From Rubrivivax sp. (GTDB lineage: Bacteria > Pseudomonadota > Gammaproteobacteria > Burkholderiales > Burkholderiaceae_C): a stretch of DNA of 64,000 nt. The notes under the pieces are model-generated. The model was not told the origin of the DNA. It saw only the letters and a list, made by a program, of their open reading frames with translations, and did no database searches. The stretch covers positions 28,544 through 92,543 of the forward strand of contig JAEUPC010000173.1 in assembly GCA_016789865.1 (NCBI GenBank), read 5' to 3'. Shown piece after piece: positions 37,979 to 47,770 of this stretch (position 1 is its first letter; each line of letters opens with the position of its first letter). The position numbers and the translations under genes were made by a program.

Positions 37979-38758
37979 GTGCCGAACCACGCCTCCCTCA
38001 CCGCACCCCGCCCCGTGCCGCGCGCGCTGGCGCCGCTGGCGTGGCTGGCGCTGCAGGTCCAGCTGCTGGCGCTGGGGCTCACGTCGCTGGCATGGAACCT
38101 GTGCGCGTTCTTGCTGTACCCGCTGCTGCCGGCGGCACGTGGCCGCACGCTGGGGCGCGCGGCCATCGCGCGCGGCTACCGCGGCTACTGGGCCTTCACG
38201 CGGCCATTCGGCATGCTGCGCCTGCACGGCGAAGCGCTCGACGCACTGGCCGACGAACCCGGCCTGGTGATCGTGGCCAACCACCCGAGCCTGCTGGACG
38301 CGATGATGCTGGTGGCCCACCTGCCGCGCAGCGCGTGCGTGATGAAGGCCAGCCTGCTGCGCAACCCCTTCCTCGCTGCCGGTGCGCTGCTGGCACGCTA
38401 CATCCCCAACGATTCGGCGCACCTGATGATCCGCCGCGCCGTGGCTGATCTGCGCGCCGGCGGCCAGCTCGTGATGTTCCCCGAGGGCACACGCACCACG
38501 CGCGCGCCGCTGAACCCGCTGCAGCCCGGCTTCGCGCTCATCGCCAAGCACGCCGGCGTGCCGATCCAGACCGTGTTCATCGACACCGCCTCGCCCTACC
38601 TGGGCAAGGGCTGGCCGCTGTGGCGGCTGCCGCCGCTGCCCATCCGGTTTGACGTCCGCCTCGGACAGCGCTTCGAGCCGGGGGCCGACCACGAGGCACT
38701 CACGCGTGAGATCGAAGCCTACCTCCACGCCGGCCTGGCCGCAGCGCCGGCGTCATGA
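37979..38758 (+). CDS. PlsC-type 1-acyl-sn-glycerol-3-phosphate acyltransferase family protein
   Basis: A 259-residue membrane acyltransferase. A hydrophobic N-terminus (about residues 18-45) is followed by ANHPSLLDAMML (the HX4D motif as HPSLLD), MKASLLRNPFL, and FPEGTRTT. The family moves acyl chains to glycerol or other hydroxyls; here it likely links the polyene acyl group to a lipid. The GTG at 37979 is preceded by GCGAGGA. Its stop overlaps an ATG (ATGA) that opens a chain of three mini-ORFs leading to the glycosyltransferase. Confidence 0.85.
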   Translation: MPNHASLTAPRPVPRALAPLAWLALQVQLLALGLTSLAWNLCAFLLYPLLPAARGRTLGRAAIARGYRGYWAFTRPFGMLRLHGEALDALADEPGLVIVANHPSLLDAMMLVAHLPRSACVMKASLLRNPFLAAGALLARYIPNDSAHLMIRRAVADLRAGGQLVMFPEGTRTTRAPLNPLQPGFALIAKHAGVPIQTVFIDTASPYLGKGWPLWRLPPLPIRFDVRLGQRFEPGADHEALTREIEAYLHAGLAAAPAS

Positions 38759-38820
38759 GCGCGCCGGGCCGTTCCCAAGCGCTCATCCCGAAGCGCGCAG
38801 CGCGCAGGGTAGTGCAGTGA
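38755..38820 (+). CDS. Mini-ORF 1 (21 residues) in tandem intercistronic repeat
   Basis: An ATG overlapping the acyltransferase stop (ATGA) opens a frame reading SAPGRSQALIPKR then AARRVVQ and a TGA at 38818. That stop overlaps the GTG of mini-ORF 2 (GTGA). The same peptide motif recurs at three other junctions of this cluster. It may act only to hand ribosomes on; whether the peptide is stable is unknown. Confidence 0.5.
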   Translation: MSAPGRSQALIPKRAARRVVQ

Positions 38821-38942
38821 TCGCGCCGGGCCGTTCCCAAGCGCTCATCCCGAAGCGCGCAGCGCGCAGGGTAGTGCAGTGATCGCGCCGGGCCGCTCCC
38901 AAGCGCTCATCCCGAAGCGCGCAGCGCGCAGGGCCGTCCAAT
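38757..38942 (+). repeat. Three tandem 62-bp repeats between acyltransferase and glycosyltransferase
   Basis: Units start at 38757, 38819 and 38881, each 62 bases and almost identical; only the last bases of unit 3 and single positions differ. Because 62 is not a multiple of 3 and equals 66 minus a 4-base overlap, every unit shifts the frame so that each stop overlaps the next start. Each unit contains GCGCCGGGCCG and the near-palindrome GAAGCGCGCAGCGCGC. Confidence 0.9.
38817..38882 (+). CDS. Mini-ORF 2 (21 residues) in tandem intercistronic repeat
   Basis: GTG start overlapping the stop of mini-ORF 1. It encodes IAPGRSQALIPKR, then AARRVVQ. Its TGA overlaps the GTG of mini-ORF 3. The DNA differs from unit 1 at one base (GC to TC after the start). 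Confidence 0.45.
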   Translation: MIAPGRSQALIPKRAARRVVQ

Positions 38943-38944
38943 GA
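38879..38944 (+). CDS. Mini-ORF 3 (21 residues) in tandem intercistronic repeat
   Basis: GTG start overlapping the stop of mini-ORF 2. It encodes the same peptide with AVQ in place of VVQ, and its TGA overlaps the ATG of the glycosyltransferase (ATGA). Ribosomes could pass by termination-reinitiation through all three units. Confidence 0.45.
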   Translation: MIAPGRSQALIPKRAARRAVQ

Positions 38945-39735
38945 GCATGCCACGTCCGCCGGCCGAGGCCTCGCGCAGCCACCTGGTGCTGATCCCGAGC
39001 TACGACACCGGCCCCAAGGTCTACGAAACCGTCGCCGCGGCACGCGCGGCCTGGTGCCCGGTGTGGGTGGTGGTGGACGGCAGCACCGACGGCACGGCCG
39101 AGGGCCTGCAGGCGCTGGCCGCAAGCGACCCCGGCCTGCAGGCAATGGTGCTGCCGCGCAACCAGGGCAAGGGCGCGGCCGTGCTGCACGGCCTGGAACG
39201 TGCCGCCGCGGCCGGTTTCACGCATGTGCTGACGATGGACAGCGACGGCCAGCACCCGGCCGGGCTCATCGGCGAATTCATGCGCCGCTCGGCCGCGCGC
39301 CCCGAGGCGATGATCCTCGGCCGCCCGGTGTTCGACGCCAGCGCACCGCTGCTTCGTGTGCGCGGCCGGCGCATCAGCAACGGCTGGACCGACCTGGAGA
39401 CGCTGTTCGCGGGCATCGGCGACTCGCTGTACGGCTTCCGCGTCTACCCGCTCGCGCCGCTGCTGGCCGTGATGCGCGCCCAGCACTGGATGCGCCGCTT
39501 CGACTTCGACACCGAGGCCGTGGTGCGCCTGGCCTGGCGGGGCGTCAAGCCGATCAACCTGGACGCGCCCGTGAAGTACCTCAGCGCCGCCGAGGGTGGC
39601 GTCTCGCACTTCCGCTACGGCCGCGACAACGTGCTTCTGACGTGGATGCACACGCGGCTGATGCTGGAGTTCCTGCTGCGGCTGCCTCTGCTGCTCGCGC
39701 GCCGGCTGCTGCGGCGTGCGCCGTTCCAGCCCTGA
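38941..39735 (+). CDS. Family 2 glycosyltransferase
   Basis: A 264-residue GT2 enzyme. VLIPSYDTGPKVYETV and VVVDGSTDGTAEGL give the nucleotide-sugar fold, MDSDGQHP the DxD-like metal site, and GDSLYGFRVYP the acceptor loop. A basic hydrophobic C-terminus (LMLEFLLRLPLLLARRLLRR) suggests membrane association. GT2 genes occur in aryl polyene clusters. It is the last gene of the plus operon. Confidence 0.85.
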   Translation: MSMPRPPAEASRSHLVLIPSYDTGPKVYETVAAARAAWCPVWVVVDGSTDGTAEGLQALAASDPGLQAMVLPRNQGKGAAVLHGLERAAAAGFTHVLTMDSDGQHPAGLIGEFMRRSAARPEAMILGRPVFDASAPLLRVRGRRISNGWTDLETLFAGIGDSLYGFRVYPLAPLLAVMRAQHWMRRFDFDTEAVVRLAWRGVKPINLDAPVKYLSAAEGGVSHFRYGRDNVLLTWMHTRLMLEFLLRLPLLLARRLLRRAPFQP

Positions 39736-43287: not shown

Positions 43288-44150
43288 CGGCCGCTCTCGA
43301 CAGCCGGGCCGCCCGACGCAGCGCTCGCCAGGTCGGCCACCAGCAGTACGTTGGCAAAGGGCGTGCCCTCGCTCATCGGCAGCGGCTCGACCTCGAACCC
43401 CAGCGAAGCCAGCAGATGCGTCCATTGCGCCACGGTGCGACCCCAGGTGGGCGGCACGCGGTGCCCGCGCAGACCGGTGACGATGCGGTCGACCCACTGG
43501 CTCGCCGCAAAGCCGCGGCGGCTGGCGGCATCACCCACGCGCAGCAGCAGGCGGCGCGGCGACGCGCCCGTGCCGGCGCGCAGCGCATCGCGAACGCGCG
43601 CCAGCAGGGCCTGCTGGGCTTCGTGATCGACGTAGTGCAGCACGTCGAGAATGATCACCAGATCGCAAGGCGGCAGCGCGGCGGCGCGCATGTCCGCACA
43701 GGTGAACTGCGGCATCGGCAGGCCGGGACCCGGCGCGCCGGATGCGGCCGGTGCGGCCGGTGAGGACTGGGCGGCCCGGGCGGTCTGGGCGGCCTGGGCG
43801 CGCGCCACGTCGCGCGCCATCAGTTCGATGCCGTGGTATGCGTGCAGCTGCGGCAGTGCGGGCCAGGCGGCCGGCCAGAGGCCGCGCGCGAACGCAGCGC
43901 CGCAGGCCTGCAGCAGGCTGGCCATCAGGCCCTGGCCGCAGCCGATGTCGACCACCGTGCGCGTGCCCGCGCCGAGCAGGCCGCGCTCGAGCAAGGAGCG
44001 GAACACCGGATCGTGGCTCAGCTTGCCGCGCGCGAAGTGATAGGCGAAGCGGCCGGCGCCGCGATAGGGCGCACTGGCCGCGTCGAGCAGCGCCGACCAG
44101 GCCGCAGCGGCGTCGGCCGCAGGGTCGTGGCCGGCCTGCGCCGCACTCAT
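43284..44150 (-). CDS. SAM-dependent methyltransferase of pigment cluster
   Basis: A 288-residue class I methyltransferase. VVDIGCGQGLMASLLQACG binds SAM, and CDLVIILDVLHYVDHEAQ and RLLLRVGDAASRRGF form later motifs. A low-complexity Ala-rich loop (QAAQTARAAQSSPAAPAASGAPG) interrupts the fold near residue 130. It is a likely ApeB-type aryl methyltransferase. Its ATG overlaps the stop of mini-ORF 5 (ATGA). Confidence 0.82.
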   Translation of the reverse strand: MSAAQAGHDPAADAAAAWSALLDAASAPYRGAGRFAYHFARGKLSHDPVFRSLLERGLLGAGTRTVVDIGCGQGLMASLLQACGAAFARGLWPAAWPALPQLHAYHGIELMARDVARAQAAQTARAAQSSPAAPAASGAPGPGLPMPQFTCADMRAAALPPCDLVIILDVLHYVDHEAQQALLARVRDALRAGTGASPRRLLLRVGDAASRRGFAASQWVDRIVTGLRGHRVPPTWGRTVAQWTHLLASLGFEVEPLPMSEGTPFANVLLVADLASAASGGPAVESGR

Positions 44151-44278
44151 GGGGCGGGCGTGCATGCTGCGCGCTCCGGCATGAGCGCTCGGGAACGCCC
44201 CGGCGCGCTCACTGTTGGAATACCTTCGCGCTTGAAGCGCTGCGGTGTGAGCGCTTGGGAGCGGCCCGGCGCGCTCAT
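44147..44278 (-). CDS. Mini-ORF 5 (43 residues), two repeat units in frame
   Basis: Begins at an ATG overlapping the deacetylase stop (ATGA) and ends with a TGA overlapping the methyltransferase ATG (ATGA). It encodes two successive copies of the motif: SAPGRSQALTPQR...EGIPT and VSAPGRSRALMPER. The first unit is 66 bases, a multiple of 3, so the second is read in the same frame rather than restarted. Coupling function is inferred from the overlaps. Confidence 0.5.
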   Translation of the reverse strand: MSAPGRSQALTPQRFKREGIPTVSAPGRSRALMPERAACTPAP

Positions 44279-45233: not shown

Positions 45234-47660
45234 CTAGCGGCCGTCGCCTCCACGCCGTTGCGGCGAGGCAAATGCGGCCGCCAGCAGCAGCGCCAGCAGT
45301 GCACCGGGGGCGACCACGAGGCCGATGGCCGAGAGTGCCGGAATGGCCGAGAACGCGAGCAGCCCGAAAGAGAACACGGTCGTCAGGTTGGCCAGCAGCA
45401 GGCTGGCCAGGGTGTCGGGGTCGGCGCTGGCGCCACCAGCGCTGTGGTCGGCGCCGCGATCCGTGCCGCTGCCTCCCACGCGATCGAAGAACAGCGCGTA
45501 GTTCGAGCCCACGGCCACCACCAGCAGCATGCCCACCAGGTGCAGGATGCCCAGGGTTACGCCCAGGGCCGCCAGCGCGCCCAGCACCAGCAGCACGGCC
45601 AGCACCAGCGGCTGCACCACTGCGAGCACGCGCCGGGGCCGCCGCAGCGAGCCGGCGATCAGCGCCAGCACCGCCAGCGCGCCGAGCGCCGATTGCCACA
45701 AGGCCTCGTCGACATAGCGCTGGTACAGCGCGTCGAGCTCGTGCTTGATGTCGAGCAGCTGCGTGCCCGCCAGCCCCGCCAGCACCGCGCGCACGGCGCC
45801 GGTATCGAGGGTCTCGCCCACCGGGTGCAGCGGCAGCAGCGCCGCGTGGCTGCCGTCGCGGCGGGCCAGCAGCAGCGCATCGACCATCGGCGCCAGCGGC
45901 GTGCCGCGCAGCGTGGCCGCGGTGAGGGGCGCGGCGTGGCGCGCGGCCTCGACCTCGGCCACGAAGGGCGCCAGCCGCGCCGGCGACAGCGGCGTGCCGC
46001 GCGTGGCCTCGGCCAGCGCCGACTGCAGCGCCGCGGGCTCGGGCAGGCTGGTGCGGCGGGCCTGCTGCGTGGCCTGGCTGGGCAGCAGGTGCGTGACGCT
46101 GTCGAAGCCGCCCAGGCGACGCTGCTGCACCAACGACTCCAGTCTGGCCGCGGTGGCCTCGGCACGCTGCAGCGTCGTCTCGGCATCGGGGCCTTGCACC
46201 ACCACCAGCGCGCGCGCGTCGCTGGTGCCGAGGCCGGCGCGCAGGTCGCGATCCAGCGCCAGCATCTCCGGTGCCAGCGGGCTCAGCGCCGTGAGGTCGG
46301 CGCGCCACAGCTCGGTGCGCTGCGCCACCAGCAGCGCCGCAGCCAGGCCGGCAGCCAGCAGCGGCCAGCGCAGGCGCGGCAGCAGGCGCACGAGCGCGGC
46401 CGCAAGCGCGCCCAGCCAGCGCCGCGCGCCTTCACCGCTGGCACCGTCGGGCAGCCAGGCTGGCAGCAGGAAGCGCGTGGTCAGCGCCGCCGCCAGCAGC
46501 CCCGCGATCGAGAACACCCCGAGCTGCGCCAGCCCCGGGAAGCCGGAGAACACGAGCGCGCCGAAGCCCGCGATCGAGGTCCACAGGCCCAGGCGCACTG
46601 TGGGCCAGCCGGTGGCCAGCCAGCCACGCCAGCCGGCGCCGGGCTGCACCGCCGCCGCTGCGCGCGCCTGCACGAGGTAGTAGATGGCGTAGTCCACCGC
46701 CTCGCCGATGAGCGTGGCGCCGAATCCCAGCGTCAGGCCGTGCACCTGGCCGAAACCGGCGCCCACGGCCGCGATGCCGGCCAGCACCCCGGTGCCCACC
46801 GGCACCAGTGCCACCGCCAGCGCGCGCGGGCTGGCGAAGGCCAGCAGCAACAACGCGCTCATCGCCAGCGTGCCGGCAACGGCCAGCCACTGCACCTCGC
46901 GCTCGATGCGCTCGCGGCTCGTCACGGCGAACAGCGGCGCCCCACTGAGCTCGAGGTTGAGTTCGCGCGCGCCCAGCGCCGCGAAGGCGCCGCGGAGCTC
47001 AACGATGGCGGCCTGTTGGCCATCGAGATCGGCGCCCGGCGCGCGCGTGGTCGCCAGCAGCAGCGCGCGGCCACCCTCGCGCGCCGCCCACACGCCTTGC
47101 TCCAGGCGTGGCGACCGGGCCGGGATCAGCGCTTCGGCGATGCGCTGCACTTCGCCGCTGGGGTCGCGCTCCAGCAGCGACCTGACGGCGCCGCCGGCCG
47201 GCGTGCCCAGCAGCGACAGCGTCTCGGCCAGCGCTTCGGACAGGCCAGCGGCCGTGAAGCGCGCCGGCTCCACCGCGGGGCTCAACGCATAGCGATGGTC
47301 GGCGATCCAGCGCCCGGCCTCGGCCCACGCCTCGCGCTCGCCGTTGAGCACCTGCTCGAAGCGTGCGCTGGCGCGCAAGGTGCGGGCCAGCGCGCGCGAG
47401 GCCTCGGCACGTGCCTCGGCCGTGCCGCCGCGCACGCCCACCAGCAGCGTGCGCGAAGGGGTGCCGCTTTCCAACTGCTCGATGAGCATGCGCTGCTGCG
47501 CGTCGGGGCTGCGCGGCAGGAAGGCTGACATGTCCGCGCTGAAGGGCGTGCGCACCACCAGCAGCAGCGCCAGCGCGCAGCCGGCCAGCCAGGCCAGCGT
47601 GATGCCCAGGCGGCGCGGCGCGGCGGCCCGCGGCGGCGCGGTCATCGGACGGCGACCCAT
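45234..47660 (-). CDS. MMPL-family exporter (RND superfamily)
   Basis: An 808-residue polytopic protein with two repeats of one plus five membrane spans. The first large loop follows LGITLAWLAGCALALLLVVRTPFSADMSAFLP. GFGATLIGEAVDYAIYYLVQARA and VAVGSNYALFFDRVG are the duplicated MMPL motifs in the middle spans. Such exporters accompany LolA in aryl polyene clusters and probably move the lipid-linked pigment out of the inner membrane. An alternative start is the ATG at 47645. Confidence 0.9.
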   Translation of the reverse strand: MGRRPMTAPPRAAAPRRLGITLAWLAGCALALLLVVRTPFSADMSAFLPRSPDAQQRMLIEQLESGTPSRTLLVGVRGGTAEARAEASRALARTLRASARFEQVLNGEREAWAEAGRWIADHRYALSPAVEPARFTAAGLSEALAETLSLLGTPAGGAVRSLLERDPSGEVQRIAEALIPARSPRLEQGVWAAREGGRALLLATTRAPGADLDGQQAAIVELRGAFAALGARELNLELSGAPLFAVTSRERIEREVQWLAVAGTLAMSALLLLAFASPRALAVALVPVGTGVLAGIAAVGAGFGQVHGLTLGFGATLIGEAVDYAIYYLVQARAAAAVQPGAGWRGWLATGWPTVRLGLWTSIAGFGALVFSGFPGLAQLGVFSIAGLLAAALTTRFLLPAWLPDGASGEGARRWLGALAAALVRLLPRLRWPLLAAGLAAALLVAQRTELWRADLTALSPLAPEMLALDRDLRAGLGTSDARALVVVQGPDAETTLQRAEATAARLESLVQQRRLGGFDSVTHLLPSQATQQARRTSLPEPAALQSALAEATRGTPLSPARLAPFVAEVEAARHAAPLTAATLRGTPLAPMVDALLLARRDGSHAALLPLHPVGETLDTGAVRAVLAGLAGTQLLDIKHELDALYQRYVDEALWQSALGALAVLALIAGSLRRPRRVLAVVQPLVLAVLLVLGALAALGVTLGILHLVGMLLVVAVGSNYALFFDRVGGSGTDRGADHSAGGASADPDTLASLLLANLTTVFSFGLLAFSAIPALSAIGLVVAPGALLALLLAAAFASPQRRGGDGR

Positions 47661-47668
47661 GCTGCGCG

Positions 47669-47770
47669 CTACGGGATGAGCGCTTGGGAGCGGCCCGGCG
47701 CGTTCACTGGAGTACCTTCGCGCCTGAAGCGCTTCGGAATGAGCGCTTGGGAGCGGCCCGGCGCGCTCAT
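47669..47770 (-). CDS. Mini-ORF 4 (33 residues) between LolA and exporter
   Basis: Opens at an ATG overlapping the lolA stop (ATGA) and encodes SAPGRSQALIPKR, FRREGTP and VNAPGRSQALIP before a TAG. The stop falls 8 bases before the exporter ATG instead of overlapping it. One full unit of 63 bases and a truncated second unit are present, so the second motif is read in the same frame. Confidence 0.5.
   Translation of the reverse strand: MSAPGRSQALIPKRFRREGTPVNAPGRSQALIP

Follow-up and report, generated by a model that had tools for sequence, protein, structure and literature searches.

The presence of small repeats inside operons raises the question of how they persist there without shutting down the genes that follow, and one answer has been found in mycobacteria, with the mycobacterial interspersed repetitive units (MIRUs). 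These elements were reportedly described by Supply et al. in 1997, and their target follows a DTGA rule. The same question is raised by the junction between an acyltransferase gene and a glycosyltransferase gene in a 64,000-nucleotide stretch of Rubrivivax sp. DNA (referred to as the window), where three short open reading frames (ORFs) are chained by overlapping stop and start codons. In the initial annotation this chain was interpreted as a modular linker in which the copy number could tune the number of ribosomes that reach the downstream gene. The data discussed here indicate that the array is part of a real, widespread and probably mobile repeat with a MIRU-like logic in Burkholderiales. 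This repeat occurs in numerous copies between different pairs of genes, with sites that are empty in a close relative and with two unit-length classes in nature, and it makes re-initiation accessible to study in environmental bacteria such as Rubrivivax and Piscinibacter (Ideonella) sakaiensis.

The array at the window junction and other copies in the same genome

The array at 38755-38944 is composed of three 62-bp units, each harboring a 21-codon ORF, with ATGA, GTGA, GTGA and ATGA at the consecutive junctions. The units and the flanking genes are:

37979..38758, plus strand, upstream gene, acyltransferase (PF01553, E 5.3e-17, Pfam)
38755..38820, plus strand, unit 1, mini-ORF ATG...TGA, 21 codons
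38817..38882, plus strand, unit 2, mini-ORF GTG...TGA, 21 codons
38879..38944, plus strand, unit 3, mini-ORF GTG...TGA, 21 codons; its terminal ATGA is the start of the downstream gene
38941..39735, plus strand, downstream gene, family 2 glycosyltransferase with its ATG at 38941 (PF00535, E 2.7e-17, Pfam)

This arrangement, i.e., three units with 21-residue ORFs and four overlaps, had been described in the initial annotation and is confirmed by the ORF coordinates and by TRF, which identifies a tandem repeat at 38756-38933 (period 62, 2.9 copies, 98% matches). The stop codon of the acyltransferase gene (TGA, 38756-38758) is at the same time the first TGA of the repeat. The mini-ORFs of units 1, 2 and 3 encode the peptides MSAPGRSQALIPKRAARRVVQ, VIAPGRSQALIPKRAARRVVQ and VIAPGRSQALIPKRAARRAVQ, respectively, where the initial Val of the GTG units becomes fMet if GTG serves as a start codon. 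Units 1 and 2 differ at one position, units 2 and 3 at five and units 1 and 3 at six. The tail GTAGTGCAG is common to units 1 and 2, and the start TGATC is common to units 2 and 3, a pattern that would be expected from an unequal exchange by which a two-unit array was enlarged. No Rfam family reaches its gathering score in the segment 36000-42000 of the window, and a known Rfam family was therefore ruled out; between 38700 and 39000 just two weak matches, far under the cut-off, are found.

In general, a unit begins with TGAGC and stops ahead of the next (A/G)TGA. The 5′ half is formed by an imperfect inverted repeat (TGAGCGC...GCGCTCA), and the 3′ half contains a potential small GC-rich hairpin together with an AGGG/GGAGG stretch. 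Units of 62 bp and of 63 bp predominate, and their tails differ. A 62-bp unit puts the next TGA in frame, where it becomes a stop codon; with a 63-bp unit the ORF runs on through the next unit.

When the window was searched with the 19-base core GCGCCGGGCCGYTCCCAAG (at most 3 mismatches), seven matches were found, compared to 0.49 expected from shuffles (largest shuffle 2), so that these matches are not due to chance. Four of the seven lie outside the array at 38755-38944, in two arrays on the other strand:

44147..44278, minus strand, second array, two units, spacing 66, between a polysaccharide deacetylase gene and the next gene
47642..47770, minus strand, third array, two units, spacing 63, between LolA-like and MMPL genes

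The second array contains a 43-codon ORF that ends in the ATGA which starts the next gene, and in the third array the ORF path is interrupted by an in-frame TAG in the last unit. The segment 37000-48500 of the window, which holds all three arrays, groups genes for an acyltransferase, a glycosyltransferase, a short-chain dehydrogenase, an MMPL protein, a LolA-like protein and a polysaccharide deacetylase. This gene group presumably resembles an aryl polyene-type cluster.

The genome to which the window belongs (own genome) harbors 41 core matches (at most 2 mismatches), as compared to one for the reversed pattern. A start codon overlaps the first TGA in 20 of its 22 arrays. By hand count, 15 of these 22 are stop-start coupled into the next gene, two are fused to it in frame and five are neither.

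Gene junctions, reading frames and insertion sites

The positions of the repeat were analyzed in two sets of arrays. For the named set, selected with a pattern containing the first TGA, 68 arrays were analyzed and 19 near ends (short flanks) were excluded; 64 of the 68 are co-directional, and these are divided into 51 coupled, 5 fused and 8 other arrays. The pooled non-redundant set, which contains arrays of the own genome and of the named set, is composed of 183 arrays, of which 162 start with TGA. Among the latter, 148 of 162 sit between co-directional coding sequences (operon placement is by gene orientation), while co-directional flanks are found for 7 of the 21 arrays that lack the initial TGA.

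In 131 of the 148 co-directional arrays the first TGA of the repeat is precisely the stop codon of the upstream coding frame. The base that precedes this TGA is A in 126 arrays, G in 18, T in 2 and C in 2, i.e., A, G or T in 146 of 148. Along the ORF path to the downstream start, 122 arrays are coupled, 10 are fused and 16 show neither. The overlaps are −4 throughout in 121 of the 122 coupled arrays and −1 in the remaining one, and 111 of the 121 have the downstream overlap exactly 62 bases after the start of the last unit. When the frame of the downstream gene is determined from codon usage alone, which gave a confident assignment in 146 arrays, 125 fall in the coupled class, 13 in the fused class and 8 in neither; at least four of these eight have, as judged by eye, another divergent unit after them. 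Of 112 coupled arrays, 90 have a Shine-Dalgarno (SD)-like match of at least four bases ahead of the downstream start; ahead of the first, native-side start the figure is 72 of 122. From these data it becomes apparent that the translational-coupling architecture noted at the window junction is kept and recurs in many arrays and several genera, but also that it is not private to this junction.

The absence of stop codons in the ORF frame is no evidence by itself in GC-rich DNA; across the array, 137 of 148 cases have no stop codon in the frame of the downstream gene, and 120 of 148 have none in the ORF frame. In a control, frames shifted by 1 and by 2 also reached the downstream gene, in 132 and 126 of the 148 arrays, respectively. 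A shift of 1 hits the first TGA immediately, which leads back into the ORF frame, and with 62-bp units a shift of 2 coincides with the frame of the downstream gene itself, which is open in GC-rich DNA. Because the shifted frames reach the downstream gene as well, success of the path alone proves little, and the argument for coupling is carried by the exact −4 overlap and by the codon-usage frames. This agreement of frames largely follows from the insertion site and does not in itself prove later selection.

The internal spacings in the 148 pooled co-directional arrays are 62 (25 cases), 63 (22), 60 (6), 59 (4), 66 (3), 64 (1) and 69 (1), which yields 29, 32 and 1 spacings in the classes 2, 0 and 1 (modulo 3; n = 62), where the counts are partly dependent in that derived lengths are few and some units within one array share one event. 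A unit length of 62 bp, which had been noted to keep the overlap in every copy, is not general, as the fusing 63-bp spacings are nearly as common and five other lengths occur. Frame-disrupting lengths, on the other hand, are not found at a frequency equal to that of the other classes (not all of these spacings are independent events), and the near absence of class 1 is suggestive of a purging of such lengths. In other genera, 20-codon ORFs are chained in a four-unit array with a spacing of 59, and arrays with a spacing of 60, of four and of three units, each form a single ORF that ends at the downstream start. One array of Piscinibacter (Ideonella) sakaiensis 201-F6 likewise shows spacings of 60 and 60.

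At the loci L083, L085, L097, L123, L125, L041 and L047 the repeat ORF is continuous with the frame of the downstream gene, and the predicted N-termini may hence include repeat-encoded residues. The 63-bp class is relevant to annotation, as it can add N-terminal residues of this origin to predicted downstream proteins.

Eight junctions of the own genome were compared with those of the closest relative found, G009. Three of the eight, i.e., the window junction, L049 and L038, are empty in G009 and hold a single ATGAGC. At two of these empty sites the alignment halves overlap, by 5 bases (L049) and 4 bases (L038), consistent with a duplicated ATGA(G). The murE-murF junction of G009 harbors a 24-base remnant-like stretch of the repeat end, which still reads ATG...GTGA in frame. 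Two of the eight junctions are occupied by different or decayed units, and two are not judgeable (contig end or no flanking match); the clean empty sites are all from G009. The three filled/empty pairs, with this one relative, show what appears to be entry of the repeat precisely at the ATGA overlap.

In a wider set of relatives, the glycosyltransferase is present in 26 of 60 genus genomes, and all 26 loci were judged; the own genome is the only one of these in which the repeat is located within 450 bases upstream. MurF matches are found in 58 of the 60 genomes; 30 loci were fetched and 29 judged (not L268), and here too the repeat is found in the own genome only. In G029 (L208) a core match precedes the glycosyltransferase, but since it has 5 mismatches and is contained in a coding sequence, it was discarded as a chance match.

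A proposed mechanism of insertion and alternative readings

We consider it likely that the array represents a chromosomal interspersed repeat, presumably mobile, of about 62-63 bp per unit, which prefers DTGA stop-start overlaps and is near-transparent to translational coupling. The preferred target would be the 4-base overlap ATGA (more generally DTGA) formed by the upstream stop codon and the downstream start codon in an operon. Insertion, presumably by transposition, would leave DTGA(GC) on both sides, so that the upstream gene retains its stop and the downstream gene its start. With 62- or 59-bp units a mini-ORF extends from the left ATGA to the right DTGA and, if it is translated, a terminating ribosome could restart at every junction. 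A 63- or 60-bp unit instead reads into the next unit to form one longer ORF, usually still ending at the downstream start, and an SD-like GGAGG or AGGG is usually present ahead of the right DTGA. In this way the insert would interfere very little with translational coupling in the host operon and may also cause little Rho polarity there. Arrays would enlarge or contract by tandem duplication, and the peptide would be a by-product. An argument against this reading is that 16 of 148 ORF paths are broken, including that of one array within the window. The inner arm GCTCAT, which is complementary to the target ATGAGC, might guide insertion, but a TGAGC/GCGAA subfamily that also sits at ATGAGC argues against such a role.

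An alternative, which we regard as unlikely, is that the repeat acts as a hairpin at the DNA or RNA level, e.g., as a REP-like mRNA stabilizer, a binding site or a transposition hairpin, in which case nothing but the DTGA ends would count and the mini-ORF would be incidental. Such a role would account for the inverted repeat TGAGCGC...GCGCTCA, in which 1091 of 1175 arm cells are paired in 235 TGA-type units (several of the search patterns favored pairing), and for the existence of a sister family that has the same core, with arms such as GGCCA/GGCCT, and lacks TGA ends and coupling. Furthermore, in 37 units without a TGA-start 5′ arm (the sister family and variants of the coupled family), 111 of 185 arm cells pair, compared to a shuffle maximum of 104 (n = 1000). 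However, folding is not above that of shuffles (z-scores of −0.57, 0.54, −1.16 and 0.01 for units and −0.13 for the array), and the TGAGC/GCGAA subfamily (27 units) has a broken arm yet retains the coupled ORF. Moreover, just 1 of 62 spacings belongs to length class 1, although this class would be harmless were the ORF incidental. A special RNA fold was ruled out as a candidate on the basis of the z-scores for the units (−1.16 to 0.54).

The reading from which the analysis started, i.e., a modular coupling linker that is selected at the acyltransferase-glycosyltransferase junction and tunes the ribosome supply to the glycosyltransferase by its copy number, is in our view very unlikely. The chain is intact across all three units and the units differ little, which favors this reading, but the same repeat is found between many different genes, it is located at this junction in one of the 26 genus genomes that have the glycosyltransferase, and single-unit arrays prevail (53 of 68 in the named sample and 102 of 148 in the pooled set). 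A linker private to one junction was ruled out by the finding that the repeat is a dispersed family, and copy-number tuning is not borne out. The best reading is that of a mobile hitchhiker transparent to translation, which appears to fit the data better than tuning by copy number. Least probable is that the encoded peptide (MSAPGRSQALIPKR...) is functional in its own right: its reading frame recurs in several genera, but in the part of the unit not used for searching the codon positions 1, 2 and 3 vary about alike (entropy 0.59, 0.75 and 0.74 for 62-bp units; 0.96, 0.87 and 0.87 for 63-bp units), such that this candidate was rejected for the absence of a third-position excess of variation, and the 63-bp units alter the tail of the peptide and fuse it.

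Related repeats and taxonomic distribution

The closest known parallel is found with the MIRUs. According to a 2025 review on translational coupling, these short repeats are apparently mobile and enter at start codons, where an internal ORF is coupled at −4 to the gene, such that insertion is likely to be nearly neutral (PMC12548453). The statement of the initial annotation that no repeat with such a property had been described is therefore to be corrected. A contrast between filled and empty sites is reported at one mycobacterial MIRU-VNTR junction (PMC2734929), and MIRUs are also covered in PMC3635867. Like these elements, the Burkholderiales repeat is short, interspersed, often tandem and located between co-directional genes, the ends of its ORF overlap the flanking stop and start at −4 (121 of 148 arrays), and it sits at DTGA sites with three clean empty counterparts and one remnant-like site in one relative. 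It differs in that the hosts are Burkholderiales rather than mycobacteria, in its unit spacings of 59-69 bp as compared to MIRU units of 40-100 bp, and, as far as a comparison by description allows, in having a second class of lengths (63, 60), by which mini-ORFs are fused. The repeat would thus appear to work like a MIRU but is not classed as one, because the host group differs and the comparison covers architecture.

A broader proposal, on which we are evenly balanced, is that the repeat represents a second, independently evolved MIRU-type system across dozens of Burkholderiales genera, where the target is the stop-start overlap and the unit length obeys a reading-frame grammar in which class 2 relays, class 0 fuses and class 1 is purged, such that the arrays that remain would hand ribosomes on from the upstream stop to the downstream start. 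If true, MIRUs would be just the first example of a general type of mobile DNA in bacteria, namely elements transparent to translation.

The repeat also resembles REP/BIME elements with their RAYT (Y1) transposases in being short, dispersed, extragenic, an imperfect palindrome and partly tandem. It differs from these in that the printed arrays are head-to-tail and located at stop-start overlaps. A REP driven by Y1/RAYT was ruled out: no match to the Y1 transposase (PF01797) was found at E 1e-5 in the own genome (G000, 77% complete), and although 24 of 60 genus genomes have such a match, the copies are fewer, not more, in Y1-positive members (median 2 in 16 Y1-positive vs 9 in 21 Y1-negative genomes, among 37). 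With the Rickettsia palindromic elements the repeat shares the tolerance, in frame, of a small mobile element; those elements insert inside genes and are not known to target stop-start overlaps. The enterobacterial RU-1, RU-2 and RU-3 are likewise small mobile repeats with open frames able to fuse to genes, but they are 103-168 bp long and MITE-like, and the abstract of the report does not mention stop-start coupling (PMC2759123). For a Bordetella repeated element, which was compared by description, start/stop coupling is unmentioned in the passages of PMC3110155 considered. In the open-access literature, as judged from titles and the beginnings of abstracts, no description of the present repeat in Burkholderiales was recognized.

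With a 25-base pattern (at most 3 mismatches), 31 of 61 genomes match, i.e., 31 of 37 genus members (own genome included) and none of 24 others of the order. A family-wide sample gave matches in 73 of 299 genomes, from 46 of the 141 genera sampled; subfamilies that are related but have different arms are counted here as well. Of the 116 matching stretches in the named collection, 80 are listed; the genus name that appears most often among these is Rubrivivax (24 of 80), and the next are Leptothrix, Ideonella, Thiomonas, Methylibium and Piscinibacter sakaiensis, while many records are named just Burkholderiales, Burkholderiaceae, Proteobacteria, Pseudomonadota or beta proteobacterium. The same 80 include no mycobacteria, i.e., they carry names of Burkholderiales genera, higher-rank names and that of one Rhodanobacter MAG. 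The match in this last record (L145, Rhodanobacter sp., a gammaproteobacterium) is exact and may reflect transfer, misbinning or misnaming. Plasmids searched with the 189-base array and viral contigs searched with an exact 30-base pattern gave no match, and carriage by plasmid or phage was ruled out on this basis. The contigs C8, C51 and C141 of G009 start or end in or beside repeat arrays; since contigs end at arrays, draft genomes may understate the copy number.

Genus members such as G004, G009 and G012 harbor a further subfamily, GCGC(A/G)TGGCCGCTCCAAAGCGCTCA, which in places is tandem at 62-63 bases. The sister repeat (L308-L316, L330, L333 and L334; genomes G265 and G292) has the same core, GCGCCGGGCCGCTCCCAAGC, with arms such as GGCCA/GGCCT, and neither TGA ends nor a coupled mini-ORF; two of its arrays are spaced 85 and 86, and it looks like an ordinary intergenic hairpin repeat.
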